A DNA stretch of 64,000 nucleotides from Edaphocola aurantiacus (GTDB lineage: Bacteria; Bacteroidota; Bacteroidia; Chitinophagales; Chitinophagaceae): NCBI RefSeq assembly GCF_019797745.1, contig NZ_VOSI01000003.1, forward strand, positions 434,001 through 498,000. The letters run 5' to 3'. Position numbers and translations under genes: made by a program. Below, one piece after another: positions 11,351 through 32,686 of the stretch. The notes beneath the pieces are model-generated. The model did not search any database. It was not told the DNA's origin and saw only the letters and a program-made list of their open reading frames with translations. Position 1 is the first letter of the stretch. Each line of letters opens with the position of its first letter.

Positions 11351-11832
11351 ACGGAGTGTCCGCCTAAAGGAAACAAAGACTAGCATTATGATTTAAGTAG
11401 CTTATATATTTATTGCTACCTTTTGCCTTGATGCAAAAGGTACCGCCAAAAAATCAAGGCTGTATAAATCCCTGGCTAAAAATCAATGTGTCGGTCGGTC
11501 GCAAACGCAAACTCGCTGCGCTCAGACAGTGGTTTGCGACTTTATCGACCGAGTCAATGATTTTATTAACGCCGGATTTATAATGCCATTTTGAGCGATC
11601 TGTATGGTACGGATCACTTATTGTTTTCATTACAGCGATAGCCATTTTGGAGTGGAGCTGCGATCGTTGAGCAGCGAACGCGTTACACGTTAAGCTCAAA
11701 CGATCAGTGCACGCAACGGTACAAAATGGCGGTGCTTTGCAATCGCCTTGATGAAAACAAAGGCATTTTTGGTCCTTTTGTTGCCGGACACAAGGACGAA
11801 TGAAATAATTGACTACATGCGGATATGCAGTT
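11351..11832 (+). repeat. dispersed structured intergenic element, full copy 1
   Basis: About 482 bp, collinear and highly similar to 32204-32686, running from GAGTGTCCGCCTAAAGGAAA to CTACATGCGGATATGCAGTT. It contains several inverted repeats: GGTCGCAAAC..GTTTGCGACTTTATCGACC around 11500-11550, AGCGATCTGTATGGTACGGATC, GATCGTTGAGC..GCTCAAACGATC, and a partly decayed GTCCTTTTGTTGCCGGACACAAGGAC. I see no credible ORF; short frames through it have no recognisable motifs. It fills the whole gap between the two adhesin genes after the terminator. It could be a non-autonomous mobile element or a structured regulatory repeat. Confidence 0.85.
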
Positions 11833-14900: not shown

Positions 14901-15988
14901 ATACTGCATCTGTAAGCGGGGTCAAAGACACCATACCGAATGCCAATGCCTGCGACAGTATCATCACCCTGAACCTGGCAGTCCATTCCAAAACTTATGG
15001 CATACAGCAAGCCACAATCTGTGCCGGTAACAGCTATACGTTTAACGGCATTGTGTATACCACTCCGAATAATACCGCAAAGGACACCTTGATCAATGCC
15101 AATGGCTGTGACAGTATTGTTACCCTTAACCTGAATGTCGTACCGGTAAACCCGGTAACTGCTAGTCAGTCACTGACCAGCTGCGGCAGCATTATCTTTA
15201 ACGGTGTTACCTATACCGGCAATGCAACCGTACAGGATACCCTACATACCATATATGGCTGCGATAGCATATATCGTACTACTCAGCTTACGGTATATCC
15301 CGAATACCATATCACCCAGATTATTGATACCACCAGTTGTGCTAATTTTGTGTACAATGGAGTGACCTATACCCAGGATGCACTGGTGAAAGATACCTTC
15401 AAAACATCGCATGGCTGCGACAGTACGATCCGGGATATCAATATCCGTATCGTACATTTTGATCTGCAGGCCAGCATCAATCTGGACAATCCTTATGAAG
15501 GGCAGGAGGTGACGATCAGCACCCACAGTGCAGACGGACAACCGTACTCGATATATTCCTGGACACCGGCCAGCGCCTTTTCCGATCAGCAAAGTCTCTC
15601 CCAGAGTTTTAAAGCAACAACTGGCATGACGGTGATCATTTCCGGCACCAGTGAAGAGGGCTGTACCGATACCGCTAAAGTAAGCTTTGCCGTAAGGCCA
15701 TACCGTCCTGAGGTTATGATGCCTAATGCCTTTACGCCTAACGGAGATGGGATTAATGATGTTTTCATGCCGGTCCTGGCTATAGACGATGGTTACCAGC
15801 TGACCGATTTCAGAATTGTGAACCGCTGGGGACAATTACTCTTTTCTACTGCACATGTCAATATTGGCTGGGATGGTACCTTCAAAGGACAGCTTCAGAG
15901 CCAGGATGTGTATTGCTACCTCGTCACGATTGTATTCCTGGATGGCTCTACCAAAACATTCAAGGGAGATGTAACGCTGTTGCGATAA
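11942..15988 (+). CDS. repeat adhesin paralogue with T9SS type B sorting domain (9 Ig-like repeats)
   Basis: 1348 residues with the same architecture as the upstream 2136-residue adhesin: signal peptide (ends TVHAQ), NIDO-like N-terminal region (IGFPFNFYGQNYSQCVISDN), Ig-like repeats, four CDSI-type modules, PKD-like module and the type B T9SS tail (MPNAFTPNGDGINDVFMPVL). It has only nine repeat units (nucleotides ~13054-14835). The length difference, 788 residues, is almost exactly twelve 66-residue units, so the two genes are a tandem duplication that differs mainly in repeat number. It is predicted to be surface-anchored. It has no obvious terminator directly after the stop; one lies ~410 bp downstream beyond a dispersed repeat. 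Confidence 0.92.
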   Translation: MTKRCYGIFWILLLICSFTVHAQMDITISDTTVCKATTFNVCAATPSSTLSNISFDDEFSTVINIGFPFNFYGQNYSQCVISDNNFISFNTALAGQHSDYVYASAETAGELNNVIMFPFQDLNVATYPASTIRYMTTGKAPNRRFVVEFCRVGYYQCTSMETINQLILYETSNVIEMHINKKQNCTSWPSTTALGKGVQGVRGMTSASGVFIAGRGPTSAAWTVTVPEAQRFTPSGSTYTTSSISYAPVLFFNAGGSYTWYKGNSTTPYANTNCVSITTDTATDYYIAKYTGTIGCNSTTVTTLYDTLNINYLNPYVPITLSYCSNQLPVTWNGLTIPAGTTTQSNYDTINVTGANICDTNFVINLNIQQAVTPAFTPVAPICSGGALAALPTTATNGISGTWSPALNNTATTTYTFTPSAGSCATTASMTVTVNPNVTPTFTQVAPICAGGTLAALPTTSTNNITGTWSPALNNTATTTYTFTPSAGSCATTASMTVTVNPNITPTFTQVAPICAGGTLSALPTTSLNGYTGTWSPALNNNATTTYTFTPTAGLCATTASMTIIVNPNVTPTFTQVAQVCAGTAASPLVNTSTNGISGTWAPAWNNATTTTYTFTPNAGLCATSTTMTVTVNPNINPTFTQVPPVCVGTTLAPLPTTSLNGYTGTWSPALNNTVTTTYTFTPTAGQCTTTATMTIQINNNILPAFTQVAPICSGATLNALPVTSTNGINGTWAPALNNTATTTYTFTPSAGQCAIPATMTIVVNPILIPVFTQVGPICSGAALAALPLSSTNGISGTWTPVLNNTATTTYTFTPNAGQCANSTTMTITVNPNTTPTFTPVAPICAGAALNALPTISNNGISGTWTPAINNTVTTTYTFTPVAGVCATTATMTIVVNPPTVPAFTQIPPVCINTPLATLPTTSNNSISGTWSPAINNTATTTYTFTPTAGQCATTTTMTIVIKPYLTGNRNVHICEGNSYTFNGITYTASVSGVKDTIPNANACDSIITLNLAVHSKTYGIQQATICAGNSYTFNGIVYTTPNNTAKDTLINANGCDSIVTLNLNVVPVNPVTASQSLTSCGSIIFNGVTYTGNATVQDTLHTIYGCDSIYRTTQLTVYPEYHITQIIDTTSCANFVYNGVTYTQDALVKDTFKTSHGCDSTIRDINIRIVHFDLQASINLDNPYEGQEVTISTHSADGQPYSIYSWTPASAFSDQQSLSQSFKATTGMTVIISGTSEEGCTDTAKVSFAVRPYRPEVMMPNAFTPNGDGINDVFMPVLAIDDGYQLTDFRIVNRWGQLLFSTAHVNIGWDGTFKGQLQSQDVYCYLVTIVFLDGSTKTFKGDVTLLR
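13054..14835 (+). repeat. nine tandem 198-bp coding repeats
   Basis: Nine in-frame ~198-bp units homologous to the 21 units of the upstream gene. Units 1 and 2 are nearly identical over their second halves (compare 13186-13260 with 13384-13458), a sign of recent unit-level duplication or gene conversion. Confidence 0.9.
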
Positions 15989-16002
15989 AGCTGAAAATAT
16001 AT

Positions 16003-16322
16003 TTAACTGCCTATCCGCATGTAGTCAGCTATTTTATTCGTCCTTTTGTCGGGCAACAAAAGGATTAAAATATTGCTGTTTTTCTATTGACACTCCGTCA
16101 TTTCGAGTACAGCGCAGCGGCGTCGAGAAATTTCCCTTTCCCTGTACAAATGAGATATCTCCATTCCGCTCCGCTTCAGTCGATATGACGAAGCGATCCG
16201 TACCATACAGATCGCTCAAAACAGCCTTATAAATCCGGCGTTCATAAAATCGTTGGCTCGGCGTCGACACATTGATTTTCAGCCAGTGATTTGTGCAGCC
16301 TTGATTTTTTGGTGCTACCTTA
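16003..16322 (-). repeat. dispersed structured element, partial copy 3, inverted and rearranged
   Basis: Read on the minus strand, both ends match the full copies at 11351 and 32204: AAAAAATCAAGGCTG at 16296-16310 and CTACATGCGGATAGGCAGTT at 16003-16022. GCGATCCGTACCATACAGATCGCTC (positions 16193-16217) and CCTTATAAATCCGGCGTT are also shared. The centre is replaced by a different repeat of the form CGTCATTTCGAGTACAGCGC...GTCGAGAAATTTCC (16087-16132). It separates the second adhesin gene from its terminator. No ORF with recognisable content. Confidence 0.75.
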
Positions 16323-16399
16323 AATGGTTGCAATAATCAAATGGAAGCTAAAGAATAAGGGAAGTCCTTATTTACTAAAAGTGTATACGTAACAATATT

Positions 16400-16431
16400 C
16401 AAGGCCCTGTCTTATAGGCAGGGCCTTGTTA
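16400..16431 (+). terminator. intrinsic terminator-like hairpin
   Basis: Stem CAAGGCCCTG / CAGGGCCTTG with a 9-nt loop, followed by TTAT. Probably the original terminator of the second adhesin gene, now ~410 bp past its stop codon. Confidence 0.65.
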
Positions 16432-16523
16432 TACAAGGGATACTGCCAATCAATGTAAATCCAAAAAGGGTGAAATATGAGGGGATATATTTTCATTGCC
16501 ATCTCCGTTTAAAAATTCTCCGC

Positions 16524-16531
16524 TATCTTTG
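16524..16531 (+). promoter_or_regulatory. Bacteroidota -7 element (TATCTTTG)
   Basis: TATCTTTG matches TAnnTTTG and lies 54 bp before the ATG of the ABC ATPase gene. No well-spaced TTG (-33) is visible, so this is a weak call. Confidence 0.45.
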
Positions 16532-16585
16532 AGTGATTGCCATCGCGCAATAAGATTTATTCTGTACACTAAGGATTTACGCATA

Positions 16586-17521
16586 ATGCAAGACAACAAC
16601 ATTTTACTTTCTGTTCGTAACCTGAGCAAATCGTACGCTGCACATAAGGCTGTAGACGACATTAGTTTTGATATTGAACGTGGCAGCATCTTCGGATTGC
16701 TGGGACCGAACGGGGCAGGGAAGAGCACCCTCCTGCGCATGATCACCGGTATCTTTTACCCGGATTCCGGCTCCATTACCCTGGACGGAGAGCCGTTTGA
16801 AGGATTGAAAAATACAGCCATGATCGGCTATATGCCCGAGGAGCGTGGCTTATATAAAAAAATGAAAGTAGGGGAGCACATTCTCTACCTGGCACAGCTG
16901 AAAGGCCTGAGCAAAGAAGAGGCTATTAAGCGGGCCAAATACTGGATCGAGCGCCTGGAGATGGGCAGCTGGTGGAACAAAAAGGTGGAAGACCTGAGTA
17001 AAGGGATGAGCCAGAAACTGCAGTTCGTTGCTACGGTAATTCATGAGCCGAAACTCCTGATCCTGGACGAACCGTTTAGCGGACTGGACCCGGTTAATGC
17101 AGAGGTGATCAAAAATGAGATCTTCCGCCTGGCCAAAGAAGGGACCACCATTATCTTCAGTACCCACCGTATGGAGCAGGTAGAAGAGATCTGCGACAAG
17201 ATCGTACTCATCAACCTCGGACACAAACTGCTCGACGGTAGCGTATACCAGATAAAACAGGATTATAAAGAACATATCTTCAACCTGCACCTGTCTCAAC
17301 CCGCGCAGACGGTACCAGCAGATATTACCGTGCTGGATCGCAAGGAAAATACCTTACGTTTCCAGTTACCGGCAGAGCGTTCGGCCAATGATGTGTTACT
17401 GCATTACATCCAGCAGCAGAACAATATCCTGGCATTTCAGGAGCACCTGCCTTCACTGAACGAGATCTTTATACGCCTGGTTGGTACTACACCGACAGCC
17501 CGTCCTTTTGACAGCAATTAA
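16586..17521 (+). CDS. ABC transporter ATP-binding protein (NatA-like)
   Basis: 311 residues from the ATG at 16586 (MQDNNILLSVRNLSKSY); an in-frame ATG 90 bp upstream would add residues with no homology-like content. Walker A is GPNGAGKST, the signature is LSKGMSQKLQ, Walker B plus D-loop is LLILDEPFSGLDP, and the switch is STHRMEQ. The C-terminal ~90 residues match the DUF4162-like extension of NatA/CcmA-type ATPases (AFQEHLPSLNEIFIRLV). It powers the permease encoded 24 bp downstream; together they form an ABC-2-type exporter. The substrate is unknown (Na+ in NatAB of Bacillus, but this family is broad). Confidence 0.92.
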   Translation: MQDNNILLSVRNLSKSYAAHKAVDDISFDIERGSIFGLLGPNGAGKSTLLRMITGIFYPDSGSITLDGEPFEGLKNTAMIGYMPEERGLYKKMKVGEHILYLAQLKGLSKEEAIKRAKYWIERLEMGSWWNKKVEDLSKGMSQKLQFVATVIHEPKLLILDEPFSGLDPVNAEVIKNEIFRLAKEGTTIIFSTHRMEQVEEICDKIVLINLGHKLLDGSVYQIKQDYKEHIFNLHLSQPAQTVPADITVLDRKENTLRFQLPAERSANDVLLHYIQQQNNILAFQEHLPSLNEIFIRLVGTTPTARPFDSN

Positions 17522-17545
17522 GTTTCCCTTTAAACAATACTTCCA

Positions 17546-18838
17546 ATGAAAACAGGAATCATTATAAAACGCGAATACCTGACCCGTGTCAAGAAACGCT
17601 CTTTTATCATTACCACCTTATTATTACCCTTATTATTCATCGGTTTCAGTGCACTGACCACTTACCTGACCGTAAAGAGCTCCAGCGCAAAAACCGTTAA
17701 GATTGTTGATGACAGCCATCACTTCGTCAATAAAATAAAATCAACCAAGAATATTGCTTTCGAATTCAGTCTTAGTCCGCTCGATTCCCTGAAGAACCAG
17801 TTAAAAGCAGGGGAGTTCGATGCTCTGGTATATGTGCCGGCATTCGACATCCAACAGAAACAGACGGTAAATATTTTCAGTAACGAGCAACTCGGTATCG
17901 AAGTAGAAAACGAACTGTCTGATCAGATGAATGATCAGTTGCGTAACGAACGCCTGCAAAGCGCGGGTATCAATCAGCAGCAGTATGAAGCCGCAAGCCG
18001 CTCCACACTTACATTTGAAAACAAAGTAGGGCAGGAGGAGAAAAAATCTAACTCTGCTATTGCCAGTGGGATCTCTACCGTATCCGGCTTCCTTTTATAC
18101 TTCTTTATGCTCCTTTATGGCATGAGTGTGATGCGCAGTGTGATGGAAGAAAAAACCAATCGCATTGCAGAGATCATCATCAGCTCTGTAAAACCATTCC
18201 AGCTCATGATGGGTAAGATTGTAGGCGTAGCCCTGGTAGGACTCACACAGGTATTGATCTGGGTTGTATTCCTGGGCGTAATCTTTATCGGATTCGGATC
18301 TATGATGACCGGAAAGATCGATGCACAGCAGGCTACACAGATCGCACAAGCTGCACAGGGTAGCGGTAAGGCCGAAATGATGCAGATGATCAGTACCACA
18401 CTGGGTGGCATCAACTGGTTCAGTATTGCAGGCTGGTTTATCTTTTATTTCCTGGGCGGATACTTCCTGTACGCAGCATTGTTTGCAGCAGTGGGTAGCC
18501 TGGTAAACGAAGATCAGCAGGATGCACAGCAGTTTACCACCATCATTACGTTACCGATTATCTTCAGCTTTATCCTGATGACTGCAGTGATCAAAGACCC
18601 CAACAGTGGTATGGCCGTATTTGGCAGTATCTTCCCGCTGACCTCACCGATTGTGATGATGGCGCGTATACCGTTTGGCGTACCGACCTGGCAGTTGCTC
18701 ACCTCCGCAGCCTGTCTGGTACTGGGTTTCATCGGTACCACCGCAATGGCCGGAAAGATCTACCGTACCGGTATCCTGATGTATGGTAAGAAAGTAACCT
18801 TTAAGGAAGTGGGCAAATGGATTTTCCGTAAAGGATAA
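17546..18838 (+). CDS. ABC-2 type transporter permease (NatB-like)
   Basis: 430 residues. One N-terminal membrane segment (SFIITTLLLPLLFIGFSALT) is followed by a ~140-residue extracytoplasmic domain (SSSAKTVKIVDDSHHFVNKI onward). A membrane block of five or so helices begins at SGFLLYFFMLLYGMSVMRSV and contains the typical EEKTNRIAEIIISSVKPFQLMMGKI loop. This layout is that of NatB and other ABC2_membrane_3 permeases. It follows its ATPase by 24 bp and forms one operon with it. A small hydrophilic insert (DAQQATQIAQAAQGSGKAEM) lies between two helices. Confidence 0.9.
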   Translation: MKTGIIIKREYLTRVKKRSFIITTLLLPLLFIGFSALTTYLTVKSSSAKTVKIVDDSHHFVNKIKSTKNIAFEFSLSPLDSLKNQLKAGEFDALVYVPAFDIQQKQTVNIFSNEQLGIEVENELSDQMNDQLRNERLQSAGINQQQYEAASRSTLTFENKVGQEEKKSNSAIASGISTVSGFLLYFFMLLYGMSVMRSVMEEKTNRIAEIIISSVKPFQLMMGKIVGVALVGLTQVLIWVVFLGVIFIGFGSMMTGKIDAQQATQIAQAAQGSGKAEMMQMISTTLGGINWFSIAGWFIFYFLGGYFLYAALFAAVGSLVNEDQQDAQQFTTIITLPIIFSFILMTAVIKDPNSGMAVFGSIFPLTSPIVMMARIPFGVPTWQLLTSAACLVLGFIGTTAMAGKIYRTGILMYGKKVTFKEVGKWIFRKG

Positions 18839-18903: not shown

Positions 18904-19431
18904 ATGGCTATACAGCGTCCCTTTAACCTGAACAAATGGATCGATGAACACCGTCACCTGCTGAAACCACCGGTAGGTAATCAGCAAGTGTACAAGCAGG
19001 TAGATGATTTTATCGTAATGGTCGTAGGAGGCCCCAACAGCCGTAAAGACTTTCACTACAACGAAACAGAAGAGCTGTTTTATCAGCTGGAAGGCGATGT
19101 AGTGGTACGCATCATTGAAGACGGAAAGATCGTACCTATTGAAATTAAGGAAGGGGATATGTTCCTGCTGCCGGCACGTGTACCACACTCACCGCAGCGC
19201 GGACCCAATACAGTAGGCCTGGTAATTGAACGCGTTCGTCCCGATACCATGCTCGATTCTTTTGCCTGGTATTGCGAGAACTGTTCTCATAAGTTATACG
19301 AAGAATTCCTGCCGGTAGCCGATATCGTAACGCAGTTACCGCCGGTAATGAATGCCTTTTATGCAGACGAAGCAAAACGTACCTGCACAGAGTGTGGCAC
19401 CATTATGGAGCCGCCACAGAAACTGGCATAA
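18904..19431 (+). CDS. nbaC: 3-hydroxyanthranilate 3,4-dioxygenase
   Basis: 175 residues, a cupin. Catalytic iron ligands His51, Glu57 and His95 fall at the same positions as in the Cupriavidus enzyme, and a C-terminal rubredoxin-like iron site is present as Cys124/Cys127 (CENC) and Cys161/Cys164 (CTEC). It opens the ring of 3-hydroxyanthranilate to 2-amino-3-carboxymuconate semialdehyde in the kynurenine route of tryptophan breakdown or de novo NAD synthesis. No other kynurenine gene is next to it. It starts 65 bp after the ABC permease, so co-transcription is possible but not required by spacing. Confidence 0.95.
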   Translation: MAIQRPFNLNKWIDEHRHLLKPPVGNQQVYKQVDDFIVMVVGGPNSRKDFHYNETEELFYQLEGDVVVRIIEDGKIVPIEIKEGDMFLLPARVPHSPQRGPNTVGLVIERVRPDTMLDSFAWYCENCSHKLYEEFLPVADIVTQLPPVMNAFYADEAKRTCTECGTIMEPPQKLA

Positions 19432-20714: not shown

Positions 20715-21143
20715 ATGGCCGATGTACACTCTAAAGAGATAAGAAGTTTTAATATGAGCCGCATAAAGGGCAAGGATACCAAACCTGAAATGCTGGTGCG
20801 TAAATTTTTGTTTTCGAAAGGATTACGCTATAAACTGCATGATAAAACGCTACCGGGTAAACCAGACATAGTTTTTCCTAAGTACAAAACAGTGCTGTTT
20901 ATACATGGTTGTTTCTGGCATGGGCACGAAGGTTGCAAATATTATGTGGTACCTAAAACAAAAACAGAATGGTGGCTTACCAAAATAAATGGCAATATCC
21001 GAAAGGATGCAGATAGTATTGCGAGGCTACAGCAACTGGGCTGGAAAGTAATAGTAGTGTGGGAATGTGAGCTTAAGCCCGGTAAGCTGGATGACACATT
21101 ACAAAATCTAATGAAAACGTTTAAACAAAACAATGAGTCTTAA
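20715..21143 (+). CDS. vsr: very short patch repair endonuclease Vsr
   Basis: 142 residues. The family pattern is clear: N-terminal RSFNMSRIKGKDTKPEMLVR, then the catalytic PGKPDIVF with Asp51, His64 and the HGCFWHGHEGC block with His69. Asp51 and His69 carry the same numbers as in E. coli Vsr. The WWLTKINGNIRKD motif follows. Vsr nicks DNA beside T:G mismatches arising from deamination of 5-methylcytosine, and is nearly always encoded beside the matching cytosine methyltransferase, as here (11-bp overlap). It is the first gene of a four-gene overlapping operon in A+T-rich DNA, consistent with horizontal transfer. Confidence 0.96.
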   Translation: MADVHSKEIRSFNMSRIKGKDTKPEMLVRKFLFSKGLRYKLHDKTLPGKPDIVFPKYKTVLFIHGCFWHGHEGCKYYVVPKTKTEWWLTKINGNIRKDADSIARLQQLGWKVIVVWECELKPGKLDDTLQNLMKTFKQNNES

Positions 21144-22383
21144 ATATATTGATCTGTTTGCCGGTGCCGGTGGTTTGTCCGAGGGATTTATCCGTGCGGG
21201 CTTTAAACCTGTGGCCCATGTGGAAATGGATAAAGCAGCGTGCTATACACTGCAAACCCGTGTAGCATATCATTATCTGAAATCAGAAAACCGCTTTTCA
21301 GAATATGTTTCTTACCTTAAAGGAGAGATATCAAGAAAAGAACTTTATAGTAGAATACCTGCAGAGTTCCTGGGCTCTGTTATTAATCTTCCTGTTGGTG
21401 CTGAAAATAATCCTGCTATTCATAAAGCTATAGAAAAACAGTTAAAAGACGAAGAAGTTGATTTAATTATTGGTGGCCCACCCTGCCAGGCTTACTCGTT
21501 AGCTGGACGTGCGCGTTCAAAGAACGGGATGAAAGGAGACAAGAGAAATTACCTGTATGTACAATATGGGAAATACCTGGAAAGATATAAACCCAAAATG
21601 TTTGTATTTGAAAATGTCCTGGGCCTGTTATCTGCCGGAAAAGGTGTTTATCTCGAAAATATGAGAAAGCTTTTTCTTAAAAAAGGCTATGATATGAAGG
21701 TGTTCCGGTTAGAGGCCAATGATTTTGGGGTTTTACAAAACAGAAAACGTATTATTATAATTGGCTGGAAAAGTGAGCTGGATATAGAAGTGCCAGATCT
21801 TGAAATGGTTAAGATGGCTACAGCTCATACAGTACAATCTCTGTTCAACGATCTGCCTAAAATACAGGCAGGAGAAGGTAGTAGATATCTTAATTATAGT
21901 TCAAAAACCAACGAGTACCTTTCAGGGAAAGCAATACGCAATGGTATAGACATTCTTACACAGCATATTGCTCGTCCTCATACAGATCAGGATAAAGAGA
22001 TATATCGTATTGCAGTACAAAAATGGAATACCGAAAAAGCCCGGTTAAATTATAACGATCTGCCGGAAAAATTAAAGACACACCAAAACAGGAGTTCATT
22101 TTTTGACAGGTTTAAAGTAGTGGCACCAAATGAACCTTTTTCGCAGACTGTGGTTGCACATATTGCCAAGGATGGTCATTATTATATACATCCCGATATA
22201 GAACAAAATCGTTCAATTACGATTCGTGAAGCCGCAAGGTTACAATCTTTCCCGGATGATTACTTTTTTGAAGGTGTAAAAGATGGCATTAACCGTACTC
22301 CTGCATTTAAACAAATAGGCAATGCTGTACCTCCATTAATGGCATATGAGATTGCAAATAAAGTGAGAGAAATATTATTATGA
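21133..22383 (+). CDS. DNA (cytosine-5) methyltransferase
   Basis: 416 residues with all main C5-methyltransferase motifs in order: I (DLFAGAGGLSEGF), IV (GGPPCQAYS, catalytic Cys118), VI (FENVLGL, Glu160-Val162), VIII (QNRKRIIIIGW), IX (REAARLQSFPD) and X (QIGNAVPPLMA). The stretch between VIII and IX is the target-recognition region; its sequence specificity cannot be predicted by eye. It methylates cytosine at C5 and presumably protects the host against a partner restriction activity. It overlaps vsr by 11 bp and the following ATPase gene by 4 bp (ATGA). No classical restriction endonuclease gene is adjacent. Confidence 0.96.
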   Translation: MSLKYIDLFAGAGGLSEGFIRAGFKPVAHVEMDKAACYTLQTRVAYHYLKSENRFSEYVSYLKGEISRKELYSRIPAEFLGSVINLPVGAENNPAIHKAIEKQLKDEEVDLIIGGPPCQAYSLAGRARSKNGMKGDKRNYLYVQYGKYLERYKPKMFVFENVLGLLSAGKGVYLENMRKLFLKKGYDMKVFRLEANDFGVLQNRKRIIIIGWKSELDIEVPDLEMVKMATAHTVQSLFNDLPKIQAGEGSRYLNYSSKTNEYLSGKAIRNGIDILTQHIARPHTDQDKEIYRIAVQKWNTEKARLNYNDLPEKLKTHQNRSSFFDRFKVVAPNEPFSQTVVAHIAKDGHYYIHPDIEQNRSITIREAARLQSFPDDYFFEGVKDGINRTPAFKQIGNAVPPLMAYEIANKVREILL

Positions 22384-24539
22384 CAGATTCTAAAAAACAT
22401 AACATAAAAGCCAAGAGTCATATCCTAAGCCTATTGGGTGATGAACTTATAGGTAGTGATAGCCTCGCTATTTTTGAGTTAGTGAAAAATGCTTATGATG
22501 CCGATGCTGAAAATGTTACTGTCGAATTTATAGACTTAAATCAGGAAAATCAGCAAATAATCATTGAGGACGACGGACATGGTATGAATAATTCCGTTAT
22601 TCAAGATGTATGGTTGACTATTGGCACAGACTTTAAAAGAGGCAAAAACAGAAAGGAAAGTGAAAAGTATAAAAGAGTTTCATTTGGTAACAAAGGTGTT
22701 GGACGGCTAGCTGTTCATAAATTGGCCAAAAAAATTACTCTTGAAACACAGGCAGAAGGTGAGGCTCTCGCTAGTCGTCTGATAATTGATTGGGCTGAAT
22801 TAATAGCATCAAAAGAATTTATCCAAGAGCTAGAAGTAAATATACAAACGGTTTCAGGAATATCTTTCCCCAAGGGTAAAGGCACAAGAATTATTTTAGA
22901 TAATCTGACAACAAAAAGGTGGACAAAGAAGGCACTGAAAGACTTAGTAAGAAAAATAGAAAATATTAAAAATCCTTTTACACCTAATCCGGATTTTAAT
23001 ATTAAAATTAAAGCAAACGATTTTCATCAGGAATGGATAAACGAGGTAGCTGGTACTACGAATATATTAAACGACAGCCTTTATAAATTCTCTTTTAAGG
23101 TTAAAGTTAGCAGCGAAAACCCTGATGATTTTGCAAAATTCATATGGCTTTATTATTTTAATCCACCTGTGCAAATAAAGGTTGATAAGAGAATATCAAG
23201 AAACAGAGAAACTACTGATTTTCACATTGGGGAGTTATTTAAGGAAATTGATGGTGAAGAGGATTATTGTATGTTTCTGAGAAATAAAGACCTAAAAGGA
23301 ATAGGTACTTTCAAAGGAAATTTTTTTGTGTTTAATCAAAGCTCTGTTATATTAAAACAGAATTTCGGAGGACAGGTTAATGCAGTAAAACAGTTTATCA
23401 AAGAAAATTCAGGCGTTAAAATATTTCGTGATAATATAAGAGTATATAATTACGGAGAACCTTATGATGACTGGCTTGGACTTGATTTAGATAAAATACA
23501 AAGAACTGGAGATCACTTTGGAAAAAAAGTAACCGTAGGAGCTATTGAATTGGATTTGAAAAGCAGTAACGAAGGTTTAGTTGAAAAAACAAACCGGGAA
23601 GGCTTTACTGATAATGAAACCTATAATCGCTTCCATCTTTTAACCAAAGAAGTCTATAATTTTTTTGAAAGAGAGGCAGAGAGGGATAAAGATTTAGTTG
23701 AAGAGTATATTCAGGGAACAAGGCCAATAAAAAAAGTAGGTTTTAGCGAAACTATAAAAGAGCTTGAAGAGAAAATTAAAGATAAGAATCTTGAAAAAGA
23801 ACTAAAGCCTCTGCTAACCCGTGTTGATAAAGACTATACAGAAATGCGCGATATAATGGTGAACTCTGGTATGACCGGATTGAACTTAGGTATAGCCTTT
23901 CATGAAGTTGACAGAGAAATAAGATTTATTAATGCAGACCTAAATGCCGATCATATAGACATAAACGGAGTAAAAGATAAAGTTAGAAATTTGATTCAGA
24001 TTCTCGAAAGTTTATCGCCTATCCTAAGGCAAAATAAACCTGCGTTATCTTCTGCTAAGAAAATTCTGGAAATAGCCAAAAGACGTAATGAGAACAGATT
24101 TGCTTATCACAAAATAATTTTTTCTTGTCCTGTATTGACCGGAGAAAACGAAGACTTCAATGTTAAAGTACCTACGAATCTTCTGATATCTGCTGTTTCC
24201 AATCTAATAGATAATGCCATATATTGGGCAAGATCAAAGCGGGATCAGCAACGAAACGACAAATCCTATAAGCCTGCGATTTATATAGGAACTGATCTCT
24301 ATACATTTGAAGGCCCCGCTATTATTGTATGTGATAACGGCCCTGGTTTTTCAGTAGAGCCGGAATACCTTACTCAACCTTTTAAAACCAAAAAAGAAGG
24401 AGGCATGGGATTAGGTTTGTATTTTGCTGATCTTGTAATGAATATGATTGGCGGCAAACTTATCTTTCCTGATGCATCCGACCTCGAAATTCCTGCAGCA
24501 TATAATGGAGCTTGTATTGTTTTAGTATTCCCCAAATAA
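22380..24539 (+). CDS. two-module GHKL ATPase, histidine-kinase-like, in the methyltransferase operon
   Basis: 719 residues. An N-terminal GHKL/HSP90-like ATPase (Glu33..Asn37 in FELVKNAYDAD; EDDGHGM at 63-69; FGNKGVGRLA at 102-111) is followed by a ~250-residue middle region and a coiled stretch rich in E/K (ETIKELEEKIKDKN). A second, histidine-kinase-type module comes last: an H-box-like GIAFHEVDREI with His508, N-box NLIDNAI with Asn612, CDNGPGF (651-657), and a G2 box GGMGLGLYFAD. Having both a MORC/HSP90-type and a kinase-type GHKL fold in one chain is unusual. It overlaps the methyltransferase gene by 4 bp, and a receiver-like protein starts 11 bp after it. Role inferred: ATP-driven sensor or signalling part of a defence cassette. 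Confidence 0.8.
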   Translation: MTDSKKHNIKAKSHILSLLGDELIGSDSLAIFELVKNAYDADAENVTVEFIDLNQENQQIIIEDDGHGMNNSVIQDVWLTIGTDFKRGKNRKESEKYKRVSFGNKGVGRLAVHKLAKKITLETQAEGEALASRLIIDWAELIASKEFIQELEVNIQTVSGISFPKGKGTRIILDNLTTKRWTKKALKDLVRKIENIKNPFTPNPDFNIKIKANDFHQEWINEVAGTTNILNDSLYKFSFKVKVSSENPDDFAKFIWLYYFNPPVQIKVDKRISRNRETTDFHIGELFKEIDGEEDYCMFLRNKDLKGIGTFKGNFFVFNQSSVILKQNFGGQVNAVKQFIKENSGVKIFRDNIRVYNYGEPYDDWLGLDLDKIQRTGDHFGKKVTVGAIELDLKSSNEGLVEKTNREGFTDNETYNRFHLLTKEVYNFFEREAERDKDLVEEYIQGTRPIKKVGFSETIKELEEKIKDKNLEKELKPLLTRVDKDYTEMRDIMVNSGMTGLNLGIAFHEVDREIRFINADLNADHIDINGVKDKVRNLIQILESLSPILRQNKPALSSAKKILEIAKRRNENRFAYHKIIFSCPVLTGENEDFNVKVPTNLLISAVSNLIDNAIYWARSKRDQQRNDKSYKPAIYIGTDLYTFEGPAIIVCDNGPGFSVEPEYLTQPFKTKKEGGMGLGLYFADLVMNMIGGKLIFPDASDLEIPAAYNGACIVLVFPK

Positions 24540-24550
24540 ACCAGAAAAAA

Positions 24551-25930
24551 ATGTTAGAAAAGCAAAATAAAATAATCATCGTTGATAATATAAAGGAACA
24601 ATTAGAAATACTTGGAAAATCATTTTTTGAAAATGGTTTAGGCTGTCGTACTTTTTTATATGATCCCACCTACGATGAGCCATTAAAAAATGTGAGAATT
24701 GCCTTTTTTGATATCAACCTAACTGAAATAGCGGTAGACACAGCATATGATTCTGATGAAGATATTTTAAAACATAATTCTAGTGTCTTTAATGCATTAG
24801 CAGATGCAATAAATCTTTATATAGCAAAAGATAATGGTCCTTATGTTTTAATTTTCTGGACCGCAAATAAAAAAGTGGTTAATGCATTTAAGCTTTTCAT
24901 GCAAGACGACGAAAGAGGCTTCAAAGATACAGCATCGCCCATTCTTATAGAGAGTATTGACAAAGCTGAATATAACATTGATGGTAGCGGTAAAAATTTA
25001 GCCGAAACTGTACTTGAAATGCTTAATGCAGACAATAGGATAAAGTTTTTATTTGATCTGGAAGATAACGCACGTATTGCAGGCGAAAATACACTCAATA
25101 GACTATATAGTATTTTGCCTAAAAGTGATAAATGGGGAGAAAGCATACAAGTGTTTGAAAATTTGGATAAAGTTTTATCAAAAATTGCAGCTTCAGCTTT
25201 AGGTTTTCAGCACGCAAAAGAAAACCCTAAAAAAGCAGTGTATGAGGGTTTAATGCCTGTGGTGAATTATGAATTTTTAAATAGTGAAAGTTCATTGGAC
25301 TGGAATCAAATAGTTAAACAATTAAATGGGGCCACTAAAGTTGGTGACCTGGTAAGCCCAGATAATGAAATTCAGAATAAAGTAAATACTTTTTATCATA
25401 TAGAAGACTTCAACGGTCATTCAAAGGATGTTCGTGGTTGCTTATTAGAGATTGACAAAGCTGTTCATGCTACATTGGATTCGTTCAATATTGCTGATAT
25501 TGACGTTTGGATAACCAAATTATTGGCAATTAAGGAAGGTAATGCAACACATCAAGCCAGAAAAACTTCTATTTTACAAAATTCAAAATTAATTGCAGTT
25601 GAAATTAGTGCTGCATGTGACTATTCAAATAAAAAAGAGAGAATCAATAAGTATATTTTGGGTGTATTAACTTCAAATTTGAATTCAAACATTGAACTTG
25701 ATTTAAATTTAAAAAGCAGGCCAGAAGCTTGTTATCACCTAGGAGGATGCAGTTTCAATCACAATGGCTCTAATTATCATATTTGGCTTAATCTTAATTA
25801 TGTTTTTGGAGCAAAACCAGATGATCCTCGTTTGGGGCAGCCATTGTTTATTTTAAAGAAGGAAATAATGGATATGCTTGGTAATAAATATGCGAGTCAC
25901 ATCTCCAGAATTGGCATAACAAGCTTTTAA
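24551..25930 (+). CDS. receiver-like N-terminal domain fused to an unknown C-terminal region
   Basis: 459 residues from the ATG at 24551 (MLEKQNKIIIVDN), preferred over one 39 bp upstream because that would run back into the ATPase gene. Residues ~6-150 resemble a response-regulator receiver: IIIVDN with Asp12, FFDINL with Asp54 in the phospho-acceptor position, FWTAN with the switch Thr, and ESIDKAEY with the conserved Lys, although a long insert separates strands 3 and 4. The remaining ~300 residues match nothing I know. There is no recognisable DNA-binding or nuclease motif; GGCSFNHNG and a Cys-poor alpha/beta pattern are visible. Given its place after the kinase-like ATPase, it is probably the signalling partner or the effector. 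Confidence 0.65.
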   Translation: MLEKQNKIIIVDNIKEQLEILGKSFFENGLGCRTFLYDPTYDEPLKNVRIAFFDINLTEIAVDTAYDSDEDILKHNSSVFNALADAINLYIAKDNGPYVLIFWTANKKVVNAFKLFMQDDERGFKDTASPILIESIDKAEYNIDGSGKNLAETVLEMLNADNRIKFLFDLEDNARIAGENTLNRLYSILPKSDKWGESIQVFENLDKVLSKIAASALGFQHAKENPKKAVYEGLMPVVNYEFLNSESSLDWNQIVKQLNGATKVGDLVSPDNEIQNKVNTFYHIEDFNGHSKDVRGCLLEIDKAVHATLDSFNIADIDVWITKLLAIKEGNATHQARKTSILQNSKLIAVEISAACDYSNKKERINKYILGVLTSNLNSNIELDLNLKSRPEACYHLGGCSFNHNGSNYHIWLNLNYVFGAKPDDPRLGQPLFILKKEIMDMLGNKYASHISRIGITSF

Positions 25931-26088: not shown

Positions 26089-27237
26089 CTAAAACATACC
26101 CCTCCTCCTCCAAAACGCTTCCCCACTCCATCTCCGCTCCTGACGGTAAAAGAGATCCTTATGCCGCAGATATTGCTGCCAAATGGCATTCATTTGGTTG
26201 GTGTATGTAGTATGGAATAAGTCAAGGTTTTTTAAATTATGTTCTGTCAGTACCTGGGTCTGCTGTATCAGTTCGGTCAGCTGCATGGCTCCGGCCATGG
26301 CATTGTACATACCTTGTGAGGATAAGGGATCGAAGCTCATGGCGGCATCGCCCAGGGCTACCCATTGCGGCCCGGCGAACTGTTCCAGGCAACTGGAATT
26401 GGCGGCTACAGTGCCTCTATAATCAATAGCGCCATCAACACGCTCCAGTAAGGCGCTGATCTGTGGATTGTCCTGTGTCAGATCCAGGTAACCGCTGGTG
26501 TTGCGGAGTGCCGCACGGTCGACCAGGTCAGCATCGGTCTGGAAAGCCAGCACCCGCTTATTTCCGGGTAAGGCGGAACTATACCACCAGCCATTGGCAG
26601 CTGCAGAAATGGTGCTTAGTTTATGGTCTTCCTTATCGGGCAATACAGCCCAGCAGGAAATCAGTTTGTCTTGTATTTGTCGCGCCACACCGGCTTTACG
26701 GGCAAAGTGTGATGACCGGCCACTGGCATCGATCACCAGTCTGGCTTCTATATGATGCATTTCCCTGCCGTTTAAGGCCATATCATCTACAGTCGTAATA
26801 TGCCAGCGCTGCTGCTCATAGTGTGCACTATGCAGTTTTGCAGGCCAGATGGCCTGTACGCCCCGCTCCAGGGCGGTTTTGCGCAGATATACTTCAAAGG
26901 CCTGTCTGTCCAGGTGCCAGCCAAATCCATCGGGATTGCGCAGGTGATCTGCAATCTGCACACGATCGCTGCCCCAGTAGGATTGTATGCCCATACTATT
27001 AATCGAGGAGACCTGCCCTGCCCCATCCTGTGCCCAGTTTTCGGGCAGACCCAGTCGCCTGAAGATGCGCCGGGCAGCAGGTGGCAGACATTCACCAACG
27101 CGCGCTACAGGCGCCGCCAGCTTATCGATCAGCACGACATTATAGTGCCCGGAGAGGGCGATAGCGGCTGTACAGCCGGCCACGCCCCCTCCGATGATCA
27201 CTATTTCTGCTTTGTTTTTGTTGTTTATAACATTCAT
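26089..27237 (-). CDS. LodB-like FAD-dependent oxidoreductase for CTQ biogenesis
   Basis: 382 residues. An N-terminal dinucleotide-binding motif GGGVAGCTAAIAL is followed by GECLPP (residues ~48-53) and GDAAMSFDPLSSQG near residue 300, the pattern of flavin monooxygenases related to tryptophan halogenases. In LodA/LodB systems this flavoprotein is needed to build the cysteine tryptophylquinone cofactor in the partner oxidase. The partner gene lies directly upstream; its stop codon overlaps this start (TAATG), so the pair is translationally coupled. A free-standing halogenase is less likely because of this pairing and the absence of other natural-product genes here. Confidence 0.88.
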   Translation of the reverse strand: MNVINNKNKAEIVIIGGGVAGCTAAIALSGHYNVVLIDKLAAPVARVGECLPPAARRIFRRLGLPENWAQDGAGQVSSINSMGIQSYWGSDRVQIADHLRNPDGFGWHLDRQAFEVYLRKTALERGVQAIWPAKLHSAHYEQQRWHITTVDDMALNGREMHHIEARLVIDASGRSSHFARKAGVARQIQDKLISCWAVLPDKEDHKLSTISAAANGWWYSSALPGNKRVLAFQTDADLVDRAALRNTSGYLDLTQDNPQISALLERVDGAIDYRGTVAANSSCLEQFAGPQWVALGDAAMSFDPLSSQGMYNAMAGAMQLTELIQQTQVLTEHNLKNLDLFHTTYTNQMNAIWQQYLRHKDLFYRQERRWSGEAFWRRRGMF

Positions 27238-30200
27238 TAATTGCGGGTATCGGGTACGAAATTGGTGAAACGATCGAGCTCGCGTACGCCGGCACCGACT
27301 TTCTTCGGTAGCTCCGGTTTCACGGTTACCGGTTTCGGTTCTTTCGTAGCCAGCAGTTTGAGCAGTTTCTGTACCGCAGGAGTAGATTTATAATCGGTCT
27401 CCAGCATATGCTCAGCCAGGGCTTCCAGCTGATCTTTGGCTGTACTCACCAGGTCTTGCTCATTGAGCAGGTTTTCGGTAGACAGATGATCCACCACAGT
27501 ACCCAGCAGTGTTCTTGTAGCAGGGCTTGCACCTTTACGGGCAATAATACCTTGCAGTTCGGCCATAGACTCTTCCAGCAGTGCCTGATCCTGTGCAGCA
27601 TTCGGTACAATACCCACCTGCATCTGTGCCGGGAAGTAAGGATTACCAGGCACACCCGGACGTGGCTGTACGATGGCCAGTTTGTCAAAGTACTTGATCA
27701 TGGAATTGATCTGGTTGGTATAATTCGGCGCTTGTCCGTCCAGTGGCAGATCATTGAGCCAGGCAGCACGGTAGGCAAAGGCCAGGCGGCGGGTCTCTTC
27801 AGACATATTAGGGTCCATGGTCTCGTGATAACGTGTCTCGTCCAGGATATTATTCGGTACCCTTGCCGGCCAGAAGGTAGGCACATAAGGATCGTATGAA
27901 GAAGTATATCCATCGCGGCAACTAGCGGTATCGGTCTGCCATGGAATGGCCATCCAGCGGGTAATGCCACCAGCAACCTGTCCGCCTATTAAAGGGCCTT
28001 TGGCCAGGGTAAATACATCGCTGTTCATTACCGGGCCATAATACCAGGAGTTCACCGGAGGTGTTTTGGGCGCATGCTTGAATCGGAACGGTGCCATATA
28101 CATACCCGCACTGCGCACCGGCCAGGTCATTTCACAACCCGGGTGGAAGGCATCGGCCAGACAGAAGTCCATAGCGGCTTTGGTGAGCATATCGGGCTGA
28201 TCGGCCACCGGAAGTTTATCTATAGTCATAGGTTCCGGTACATGCGGACAACCGGTGCGGTCGATAAAGTCGGCATCGAAGTCACCTTTAACCCATTGAT
28301 CCAGGAAGGATAATTGTAAGGGAGATAAGGCTGCATGCTGGCGTACCGAACCCTGTGTTGGGATGCTGATGGCATCGCCATACAACCAAGGCCAGAGCTG
28401 TGGAGCTTCGGCACCGGATACATCGTAACGGCGGAAATTGTTAGAAATCGTACGGCGCATTTCCATATTGGCCGCAGAAGGATCGTTCAGTTTTTTGATC
28501 CATTGGGTCGTAGTATAGTCAAACTGACCACCCCAGCCAAAGGCTGCGGCAAAACCGGCATTCACCCATTGCAGATCGGTCATACGCTGAAATATCGGCA
28601 GGATATCTTTAGTGAAAGAAGGACGAGCCGGACGCGGCATCATACCTGCAGTAATGGCTACATCGCGCATCAAATCCCACATGGTGCGTACCGATTTTTG
28701 CATGGGTGCATAATCCGGCGGAGCACAGATTACCCAGGCTGGATCTACTTTCAGGGCCACACCGCCATAGGTTACTTCGGCGGTAACCGGACCATCAGAA
28801 ATATCATCGTACCAGCCTTCATTATTGGCAAAAGTGATGGCAATATCGCCGTCCACATTGGCCGCTACCCCACGTCCGCCCAGCATCACCAGACGGCCTT
28901 TATCATCCGTGTGCATCTCGCCCAGGTAAACCGGTATGCCCTGGAATTCTCCATTAAATTCATGACCACTGTTAATATTCTTGCCTTTTACCGAACGCGC
29001 CCCGCCATCAATCAGCAACGATTTACGATCGGCCACATTGATATTGCGTAGCATAGAAGCCGGTGCAGTAGCTGCGTCCGGGATGTCCAGCGCCATCTGG
29101 AACTGGTACCAGGATGATTTCTGATTGGCCAGATGACTGTGCCAGATAATCTCGGCATTATCGGCTGTCAGCTCTTTCACAGCCTTACCTGCAGCATTGA
29201 AGCCATAGATTCGGAATTGTGCCGCCTGGCGCTTCAGCGCACCGGTATGGTCACGATAGGCATAATCATCGGTTTTTACCTCCGGCTCATCAACCAATGG
29301 TCCGATAAAATATTCTCTTTCACTATTACCCACGCGCATTACGCCAATCGGCGGATAAATGCCTGCGGTAACAATACACTCGCTATCCTCATCGGTATTG
29401 CCCTCAAATTTAGGGTTGACGATGTTGGGTTCCTGCAATTGCTGACCATTCGCCTGATGACGTGCCTCCGCACTGGCTGCATATACCGTTTTACGTACAT
29501 GGGCAATCGAACCTAAGGGCTCATGCTCCGCCAAAGTGCGCCAGATATTAAAGGCAAGATTGCTGCCGAATTCGGGCTGACCGATCGCGCAGATATCCTG
29601 CTGTGGCAGGTGCAGTTCTGCAATCGCGATATAAGGACTCTCCTCCACGCTCCATACCTGTTGCGCATCGTTAATCAGCATGTTGTCATTGGTACGCAGC
29701 TGGATTTCGAAACGGAAGGTAGCCGGCTTATTGCGCAGGCGTTGCTGCAGGTCCAGGGCCAGGTAATTATTATTATCTACAGGTGCGCCACGGTCCGTAT
29801 CTACCGGTACCAGGCGGTATTTTACAATCTGCGTTTCGCCCAGTTTGAATGGCAGGATAGCCCAGTAGCCGGCACTGAGGCAGCTCGCCTCCACCTTGTT
29901 CATAGCATTGAGGATCTCCGCCAGTTCAGGGTGCTTGTCAATATAGGCGTCGTAATTATGGTCGATCACCCCCGCAGTGGTAAAGCTGCACATCTGCTGT
30001 GCATCACGGGCAAAAAAGCGGTCTATATTCTGAAAGATGAAATCAGCAGTATCGCCCTCTCCCTCCAGTTTAGGTCCTTCAACACCGAACAGCTTCAAGC
30101 CCAGTCCCAGCGTGGTATGTAAGTCCGGAGCCGTAGGTGCGGTATCACTCGAAAAGCGCACTACGCATTCATAGTGATCACCGGCAAAGATACCCTTGCG

Positions 30201-30491
30201 AAAAGCCGGATTAATATCCTTGTTTACCGTGAAGGTACCATAAGCTATTCCGTGTTGCTTACGGAACACAGCGCGCTCAGCAGGCTTCTGTCCCGTTTCA
30301 ATACGGGTCTTCTGCCCCATCTCCACAAACATTTCTTTGAGGCGTTGGGTTACGATGTCCAGGCTGCCTTCGCTATCCCAGCAAGGCACATCATTGGCCG
30401 TAGGCTGTGATAAAGGGTCCAGATTATTTTGAGATCCGGGTACAGCACCGGAAGCAGCCTCTTTTGAGGATCGTTTGTTGAATGCGTTCAT
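27237..30491 (-). CDS. LodA/GoxA-type CTQ amino-acid oxidase fused to an N-terminal catalase-like domain
   Basis: 1084 residues. Residues ~40-350 are a catalase-family fold: His80 in KQHGIAYGTF, RFSSDTAP near 112, FFARDAQQM near 160, EHEPLGSI near 322, and R333-x3-Y337-x6-R344 matching the proximal haem-ligand pattern of catalases. From ~372 it is a LodA-like quinoprotein (GIYPPIGVMRVGNSEREYFI). The predicted cysteine tryptophylquinone residues are Cys786 (HPGCEMTW) and Trp851 (IPWQTD), 65 residues apart, the same spacing as Cys516/Trp581 in Marinomonas LodA. LodA enzymes oxidise amino acids with release of H2O2, so the fusion pairs a peroxide producer with a peroxide-handling domain. No signal peptide is evident. 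Family members usually have ~650-750 residues. Confidence 0.88.
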   Translation of the reverse strand: MNAFNKRSSKEAASGAVPGSQNNLDPLSQPTANDVPCWDSEGSLDIVTQRLKEMFVEMGQKTRIETGQKPAERAVFRKQHGIAYGTFTVNKDINPAFRKGIFAGDHYECVVRFSSDTAPTAPDLHTTLGLGLKLFGVEGPKLEGEGDTADFIFQNIDRFFARDAQQMCSFTTAGVIDHNYDAYIDKHPELAEILNAMNKVEASCLSAGYWAILPFKLGETQIVKYRLVPVDTDRGAPVDNNNYLALDLQQRLRNKPATFRFEIQLRTNDNMLINDAQQVWSVEESPYIAIAELHLPQQDICAIGQPEFGSNLAFNIWRTLAEHEPLGSIAHVRKTVYAASAEARHQANGQQLQEPNIVNPKFEGNTDEDSECIVTAGIYPPIGVMRVGNSEREYFIGPLVDEPEVKTDDYAYRDHTGALKRQAAQFRIYGFNAAGKAVKELTADNAEIIWHSHLANQKSSWYQFQMALDIPDAATAPASMLRNINVADRKSLLIDGGARSVKGKNINSGHEFNGEFQGIPVYLGEMHTDDKGRLVMLGGRGVAANVDGDIAITFANNEGWYDDISDGPVTAEVTYGGVALKVDPAWVICAPPDYAPMQKSVRTMWDLMRDVAITAGMMPRPARPSFTKDILPIFQRMTDLQWVNAGFAAAFGWGGQFDYTTTQWIKKLNDPSAANMEMRRTISNNFRRYDVSGAEAPQLWPWLYGDAISIPTQGSVRQHAALSPLQLSFLDQWVKGDFDADFIDRTGCPHVPEPMTIDKLPVADQPDMLTKAAMDFCLADAFHPGCEMTWPVRSAGMYMAPFRFKHAPKTPPVNSWYYGPVMNSDVFTLAKGPLIGGQVAGGITRWMAIPWQTDTASCRDGYTSSYDPYVPTFWPARVPNNILDETRYHETMDPNMSEETRRLAFAYRAAWLNDLPLDGQAPNYTNQINSMIKYFDKLAIVQPRPGVPGNPYFPAQMQVGIVPNAAQDQALLEESMAELQGIIARKGASPATRTLLGTVVDHLSTENLLNEQDLVSTAKDQLEALAEHMLETDYKSTPAVQKLLKLLATKEPKPVTVKPELPKKVGAGVRELDRFTNFVPDTRN

Positions 30492-32203: not shown

Positions 32204-32686
32204 CTGAGTATTCCGCTTAAAGGAAACAAAGTTTAGCATTATGATTTAAATAGTCTATTTATATCTTTTGCTACCTTTTGCCTTGATGCAAAAGGTAGCG
32301 CCAAAAAATCAAGGCTGTATAAATCCCTGGCTAAAAATCAATGTGTCGGCCGGTCGCAAACCAGACTCGCTACGCTCAGACAGTGGTTTCCGACTTTATC
32401 GACCGAGCCAATGATTTTCTTAACGCCGGATTTATAAGGCCGTTCGAGCGATCTGTTCTGTACGGATCGCTTATTGTTTTCATCACAGCGATAGCCATTT
32501 TGGAGTGGAGCTGCGATCGTTGAGCACCGAACGGATCACATGTTAAGCTCAAACGATCAATGCACGCAACGGTACAAAATGACGGTGCTATGCAATCGCC
32601 TTGATGAAAACAAAGGCACTTTTGGTCCTTTTGTTGCCGGACAAAAGGACGAATAAAAGAGTTGCCTACATGCGGGTAGTCAGTTT
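32204..32686 (+). repeat. dispersed structured intergenic element, full copy 2
   Basis: About 483 bp, collinear with 11351-11832. Perfect or near-perfect hairpins: GCTACCTTTTGC (32270-32281) with GCAAAAGGTAGC (32288-32299); AGCGATCTGT with ACGGATCGCT around 32446-32470; TTGTTTTCATCA..GCGATAGCCATTTT (from 32476) with AAAATG..GCAATCGCC.TGATGAAAACAA (to ~32612); and GTCCTTTTGT (32625-32634) with ACAAAAGGAC (32641-32650). No coding frame of note. It sits between the membrane-protein gene and the aspartyl-protease gene. The left half overlaps the region upstream of the membrane-protein gene. Confidence 0.85.

Follow-up and report, generated by a model that had tools for sequence, protein, structure and literature searches.

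The 64,000-nucleotide stretch of Edaphocola aurantiacus DNA analysed here (hereafter, the window) carries on its minus strand a gene in which a catalase-fold domain is joined to a LodA/GoxA-type quinone (CTQ) oxidase, followed by a gene for a LodB/GoxB-like flavoprotein. The features of this gene pair are:

27237..30491, minus strand: fusion gene, catalase-fold domain plus LodA/GoxA-type CTQ oxidase; single open reading frame of 1084 aa (Pfam/NCBIfam)
29427..30359, minus strand: catalase-fold, putative haem domain, residues 45-355 (VIA, hhalign)
27612..29375, minus strand: LodA/GoxA-type oxidase domain, residues 373-960 (LodA_N, LodA_C, GoxA model)
26089..27237, minus strand: LodB/GoxB-like FAD protein of 382 aa, predicted CTQ maturase (NCBIfam); 1-base overlap with the fusion gene

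The GC content of the pair is 52%, against 45% in the remainder of the window. Two Pfam domains mark the oxidase, LodA_N at residues 379-589 (E 1.4e-75; 254.4 bits against a cut-off of 26.3) and LodA_C at residues 713-874 (E 5.2e-38; 130.5 bits against a cut-off of 25). The presence of both, together with a Cys/Trp/Asp site (see below) and an adjacent lodB/goxB-like gene, places the protein in the LodA/GoxA family of CTQ oxidases. It shares the predicted CTQ residues, Asp854, the overall domain and a LodB/GoxB-like partner with GoxA (6byw) and LodA (2ymw, 3weu). Unlike GoxA and LodA proper, however, it lies under both NCBIfam equivalog cut-offs (GoxA model, E 5.3e-118 and 394.7 bits against 750; LodA model, 165.6 bits against 600) and is thus classed neither as the lysine oxidase LodA nor as the glycine oxidase GoxA. 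The 382-aa flavoprotein matches LodB (E 8.5e-65) and GoxB (E 3.2e-61), also under the cut-off of either NCBIfam model. In genome_contigs, 371 relatives of the fusion protein were identified, and the best 80 were analysed; a LodB-like ORF adjoins the gene in 77 of these 80 loci, the other three being cut by the end of the locus, and LodB-like flavoprotein genes adjoin unfused homologues as well. No third co-transcribed gene emerged, every other neighbour family occurring in at most 14 of the same 80 loci. At two loci (L064 and L095) the LodB-like gene is split over two ORFs, and the 2015 survey text describes a split LodB-like gene for Oceanospirillum beijerinckii (PMC4417212).

The architecture itself has been known since 2015, when Campillo-Brocal et al. 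(PMC4417212, Table 3) tabulated 21 LodA-like proteins in which a pfam00199/cd08152 (y4iL-like) domain is N-terminal; the window protein is one more of this kind. The text of that survey assigns the catalase-LodA fusions to group III, with no subgroup of their own, and states that such catalase domains need not have catalase activity and that their role needs experiments (PMC4417212). The group III fusions have the same domain order as the window protein, a lodB-like neighbour and the same size class (963-1072 aa in the survey; PMC4417212). Three of them were recognized in our set by strain and length, namely those of Tenacibaculum ovolyticum DSM 18103 (L040), Flavobacterium soli DSM 19725 (L073) and O. 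beijerinckii DSM 7166 (L095), and all three carry the residue Phe76 discussed below.

That a catalase-like domain is joined here to a LodA-type oxidase had been proposed in the initial annotation of this DNA, and the single 1084-aa frame, the LodA_N and LodA_C matches and the fold of the N-terminal part bear it out. The search it suggested, for the same domain order in other genomes, found that order in 77 of the best 80 of the 371 relatives, across phyla. An error of sequencing or joining was also considered and is rejected on the strength of this shared order and of the copy in the sister species Edaphocola flava (L039), the closest relative among the best 80 of 371, which is 97% identical. 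The fusion gene is genuine and conserved across phyla. Among the best 80 of the 371 relatives, 77 have the fusion, including L056, whose frame is broken, and three lack it; because the set was picked by likeness to a fused query, this ratio cannot be read as the frequency of fusion among LodA proteins generally. Phyla with the fusion include Bacteroidota, Pseudomonadota, Myxococcota and Acidobacteriota. The E. aurantiacus genome has a single copy, and one of four further Edaphocola genomes searched has the gene; LodA_N occurs in 10 of 395 genomes of the phylum, at 12 places, eight of them in frames of 1055-1087 aa. LodA_N also scored over cut-off in 13 of 385 sampled Alphaproteobacteria and nine of 369 Gammaproteobacteria genomes, and five of 20 regions fetched from these two classes were fused and 15 unfused. 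A separate catalase gene beside the unfused LodA gene was found neither in those 15 regions nor at L021, L022, L080, L081 and L092, some of these regions being short or at a contig end.

The residues of the quinone site were assigned with A2, a profile of 50 relatives aligned to the solved LodA and GoxA structures:

27918..27920, minus strand: Cys858, predicted CTQ cysteine (LodA Cys516); A2 profile, C in 62/62 readable rows
27870..27872, minus strand: Trp874, predicted CTQ tryptophan (GoxA Trp697); A2 profile, W in 50/50 rows of A2
27930..27932, minus strand: Asp854, aspartate predicted to lie beside the quinone (GoxA Asp678); A2 profile, D in 62/62 readable rows

The profile alignment to 3weu stops with residue 516 paired to profile position 835, the equivalent of Cys858 in the window protein. 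In the alignment to GoxA, Asp678 pairs with Asp854, and Trp697, which we take to be the CTQ tryptophan of GoxA, pairs with Trp874. All three residues of the window protein are invariant in A2 (50/50), and Cys858 and Asp854 are kept in all 62 readable rows of a wider set of 63. According to the survey text, the CTQ of LodA is formed by Cys516 and Trp581 (PMC4417212), and the text of another study describes Asp678 as important in GoxA (PMC7876137). Thus, Cys858 and Trp874 are the predicted CTQ residues. The initial annotation had instead chosen Cys786 and Trp851, 65 residues apart as in LodA; that spacing is a coincidence, since position 786 varies (C, A, V or I in the 63-row set) whereas 858 is invariant, and Trp851, although fixed, is the Trp of a PWQxD motif and not the CTQ Trp.

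The N-terminal domain (residues ~45-355) matches the Pfam catalase family (PF00199) only weakly, with 17.4 bits against a cut-off of 25. Its fold was compared with solved structures using an AlphaFold model with a mean pLDDT of 71.2, in which the catalase half is mostly at 75-95, residues 781-880 are below 50, the LodA half is poor and the geometry between the domains is unreliable. The best VIA match is 3e4y (Z 26.2, rmsd 3.1, 277 aligned residues), spanning about residues 45-363, followed within 1 Z by the coral allene oxide synthase (AOS) structures 3dy5 and 1u5u (Z 25.7 and 25.6); the ordinary catalases among the VIA matches listed score 24.1-25.1, which places the domain in the catalase fold. 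No LodA or GoxA structure is among the VIA matches listed; with the whole model, Foldseek ranks GoxA and LodA structures first. MAP-2744c, a 33-kDa catalase-related protein (3e4y, 3e4w), is thus the closest fold, tied within 1 Z with coral AOS, but has a single domain where the window protein has two, and it alone gave a full-stretch match to the A3 profile when HMMER was run against solved catalases (E 1.7e-10).

By sequence, the nearest relatives of the domain are stand-alone catalase-like proteins of the y4iL type: hhalign to 16 of them gave a probability of 100 and E 2.4e-67, against E 1e-10 for true catalases. Many share the pair H80-G81 with the window protein; they differ from it in keeping the distal His (30/30) and in being unfused to LodA. 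The gene for y4iL itself (L023) has a di-haem cytochrome c peroxidase and a patatin-like phospholipase as neighbours; neighbours differ across L023, L159, L160 and L161, and also include an FdhF/YdeP oxidoreductase and a peroxidase family protein.

Residues of the haem site were counted in a single alignment with 83 fused rows, all distinct, together with 30 stand-alone relatives and eight true catalases. L056 (broken frame), L191 (without the distal region) and three unfused loci were left out, as were L030, L034, L055, L059 and L101, whose catalase domains duplicate those of other rows; L173, L174 and L196 were moved, by motif, from the stand-alone to the true-catalase set. Human numbering was read off the HMMER alignment, His75 lying in PERVVHAKG and Asn148 being the first Asn of VGNNTP. 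The positions of interest are:

30264..30266, minus strand: Phe76, column of the catalase distal His (human His75); F in 83/83 fused rows, H in 30/30 stand-alone relatives and 8/8 catalases
30252..30254, minus strand: His80, a second conserved His four residues on; H in 82/83 fused rows, 17/30 stand-alone relatives and 0/8 catalases
30144..30146, minus strand: Asp116, column of the main-channel Val116; D in 83/83 fused rows and 0/30 stand-alone relatives, V in 8/8 catalases
30030..30032, minus strand: Gln154, column of catalase Asn148; Q in 83/83 fused rows and 0/30 stand-alone relatives, N in 8/8 catalases (HMMER register)
29460..29495, minus strand: proximal haem motif R333-x3-Y337-x6-R344; fixed in 83/83 fused rows

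Catalases rely on a distal His to start the cleavage of peroxide. The column of this residue falls at position 76 by MAFFT (stand-alone relatives and catalases aligned together), by hhalign to either of these two sets and by HMMER against solved catalases; the VIA ranges agree, as residue 69 of the model pairs with human residue 68 and hence 76 with 75, assuming a gap-free stretch between. Accordingly, His80, taken for the catalase histidine in the initial annotation, is not in that column, where all fused rows have Phe. The sole fused row without His80 (L057) has Asp there, and the eight true catalases have S, T, V or A. Reading Arg77-x-x-His80 as the Arg-x-x-His of catalases, which the spacing would fit, was also considered and rejected: Arg73 is fixed in all three sets (83/83, 30/30 and 8/8), whereas position 77 varies among the 82 readable fused rows (R in 72, L in eight, K in two). 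Moreover, K78 and G81 align with stand-alone relatives that bear both His residues, which counts against His80 as the distal one.

On the proximal side the Arg-Tyr-Arg motif named in the initial annotation is present, so that of its overall observation the two-domain gene and this motif stand, whereas His80 and the Cys786/Trp851 pair do not. R333, Y337 and R344 are fixed in the 83 fused rows and in the 28 readable stand-alone rows (these columns are gapped in two of 30 stand-alone and three to four of eight catalase rows), and R73 and R112 are kept throughout the three sets. S114 is nearly so (82/83 fused, with Ala in L150; 26/30 stand-alone; 8/8 catalases), and F159 and F160 are fixed in all fused rows. 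Set against the haem catalases of PF00199, the domain therefore has the proximal Arg-x3-Tyr and the haem Arg set but Phe76 for the distal His and Gln154 in the column of the distal Asn148, although a one-residue shift of the fold could still present an Asn, which is at 155. The combination F76/D116/Q154 occurs in 83/83 fused rows and in 0/38 others. Phe76 is among only 37 of 311 columns fixed across fused rows down to 34% identity, and was also found in L056, read separately, and in four extra fused copies, three of these plasmid-borne, in which it was identified by motif. As the 83 rows are related, they reflect one or a few events held fixed rather than 83 independent ones. The ratio dN/dS is below 0.3 in both domains in nine of nine close pairs, indicative of purifying selection.

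The seat of the haem has been kept and has not decayed, since R73, R112, R333, Y337 and R344 are all fixed. With every haem anchor retained and Phe in the distal-His column, the domain is unlikely to be an ordinary catalase and would be a haem protein of another kind; on these residues, it quite probably binds haem and has lost catalase activity. No report of the distal His-to-Phe change was found in the open PMC literature searched, and the available portion of the survey text (PMC4417212) has neither the word 'distal' nor a catalytic histidine. The assignments also correct the residues for later mutagenesis, which are Phe76/Asp116 and Cys858/Trp874 rather than His80 and Cys786/Trp851.

The history of the fusion was followed in two trees. 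The LodA tree was built from 63 selected rows, of which 36 belong to A2 (50 rows) and 27 do not. Its 40 fused rows all fall in one starred clade of 49, together with nine unfused rows in five places; six changes are counted, possible as one gain and five losses, of which the starred branches force only four, in a tree whose outgroup does not form one side of a branch and which carries long-branch warnings. In the tree of the catalase domain, one branch separates the 40 fused rows from 10 stand-alone relatives (SH-aLRT 94, unstarred). A single origin of the fusion is favoured, though not proved, by the one LodA clade, the catalase-domain branch and the F76/D116/Q154 set common to all; the simplest account would be one fusion that spread between phyla and was lost several times. 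Damaged copies, with parts in separate frames and Phe76 still readable in each, were seen on plasmids of Sinorhizobium medicae (L218, with the domains in separate annotated ORFs) and S. meliloti (L219) and in Flavobacterium tiangeerense (L056).

In the 2015 survey, no function was assigned to the catalase domain. The annotation 'catalase domain' suggests a built-in safety catch; the consistent absence of the distal His from the fused rows argues against one. The reading that we tentatively put first is that the haem site has been rebuilt so as to oxidize a substrate with peroxide from the attached oxidase. On this view, the two-domain enzyme would be matured by the adjacent LodB-like flavoprotein; the Cys858-Trp874 quinone would oxidize an amino acid or another primary amine with O2, releasing H2O2; and the N-terminal domain would hold haem through Tyr337 and the Arg73/112/333/344 set. 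The distal side would have been rebuilt, the essential His becoming Phe76, the channel Val Asp116 and the distal Asn Gln154, and the partner's peroxide would be spent in a peroxidase- or peroxygenase-type oxidation of the substrate, the product or another small molecule, with Asp116 as a candidate acid-base group. A carboxylate on the distal side is a known feature of some peroxidases and peroxygenases (chloroperoxidase, unspecific peroxygenases, DyP), and from its column Asp116 would sit in the channel with its carboxylate above the haem; the peroxide-using reaction and the role of Asp116 are a guess. In published accounts of catalases, Val116 is the narrowest point of the main channel, and its replacement by Ala raised the peroxidatic activity of yeast catalase A (text of PMC8773446). 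The more specific proposal of a self-supplied haem peroxygenase or peroxidase, in which the Asp116 carboxylate over a Phe-lined pocket replaces the His in acid-base work and peroxide is spent on a substrate rather than dismuted, is rather unlikely. Favouring the use of the oxidase's peroxide are the fixed F76/D116/Q154, the kept haem anchors, purifying selection and the fold of small catalase-related proteins, as well as the retention of the CTQ residues and of the LodB partner, the Val116 result in yeast catalase A and the layout of a coral enzyme; against it, five close unfused LodA groups lie inside the fused clade, which shows that the domain is dispensable for the oxidase.

The coral AOS/hydroperoxide lyase-8R-lipoxygenase fusions (3dy5, 1u5u) likewise place a catalase-fold haem domain on the N-terminal side of a partner that makes peroxide, all within a single polypeptide, but there the partner yields a lipid hydroperoxide, whereas in the window protein it is a CTQ oxidase. 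The coral enzymes keep the distal His67, with Thr66 and Asn137, where the window protein has Phe76, with Gln79-His80 nearby, and the coral His starts the cleavage of the peroxide (text of PMC5617202). As the distal His is kept there, the coral AOS-lipoxygenase is a precedent by analogy of layout, not of chemistry. If the more specific proposal of a self-supplied peroxygenase or peroxidase is true, the fusion would be a natural oxidase-peroxygenase found in four phyla or more. Engineers build by hand oxidases fused to peroxide-using haem enzymes, and a domain that spends the peroxide on a substrate would be a natural example of that design.

The main rival fits nearly as well: the domain may be a pseudo-catalase that serves through its haem or fold only, in assembly, stability, localization or the sensing of peroxide or NO, with no turnover. 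This alternative, somewhat doubtful in itself, agrees with the absence of the distal catalytic His from all 83 distinct fused rows, with the loss of the domain from several lineages in which oxidase and maturase are retained, and with its somewhat faster variation between Edaphocola species (dN 0.038, against 0.008 for the oxidase). However, the distal-side residues D116, Q154, F159 and F160 are fixed in 83/83 rows besides the haem anchors, which goes beyond what a plain scaffold would need.

Of the two roles offered in the initial annotation, a peroxide-using haem domain is likelier than a protective one. Disposal of the oxidase's H2O2, with His80 or another group replacing the distal His, is improbable. 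It would suit a partner that, by knowledge of its family, makes H2O2, the retention of His80 in 82/83 fused rows against 17/30 stand-alone relatives, and a host genome with no other PF00199 match; but most of its ground is lost because the distal His is replaced by Phe in 83/83 fused rows. Moreover, none of the eight true catalases has His at position 80 (S, T, V or A there), the host has a KatG-type peroxidase, ordinary catalases occur beside the fusion in three of seven genomes searched, and several lineages have oxidase and maturase but lack the domain. A part for the haem domain in quinone formation, comparable to that of the di-haem MauG in TTQ, has the precedent of CTQ and haem-using maturation in related systems, MauG being named in the text of PMC7876137, but is very improbable: a LodB-like gene is adjacent in 77 of the best 80 of 371 loci and adjoins unfused homologues too, so that CTQ formation in this family does not require the haem domain.

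The site beside the fusion gene is an exchange site for defence systems. Window positions 20715-25930 (plus strand) hold a low-GC (35%) cassette that codes for a Vsr endonuclease, a C5-cytosine methylase (best PADLOC match DrmMII), a GHKL-ATPase protein with a weak match to type II restriction endonucleases and a 472-aa protein with no Pfam or PADLOC match. At positions 14120-18168 of the E. flava locus L039, the counterpart of 20.3-26.1 kb of the window, a Gabija pair (GajB, E 4e-235; GajA, E 3e-282) replaces the methylase cassette, and the fusion gene and the outer flanks are common to both. A repeat of ~430 bases is found in the window at 11405-11832 and 32260-32685 (91-96% alike, 20.85 kb apart), and part of it also in L039 near 19135-19369. 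Lastly, positions 13120-14805 contain eight units repeated every 198 nt (66 aa) with 64-81% identity; this array lies in a 1348-aa ORF (11942-15988), the 3' end of which resembles the end of a 2136-aa ORF at 4882-11292.
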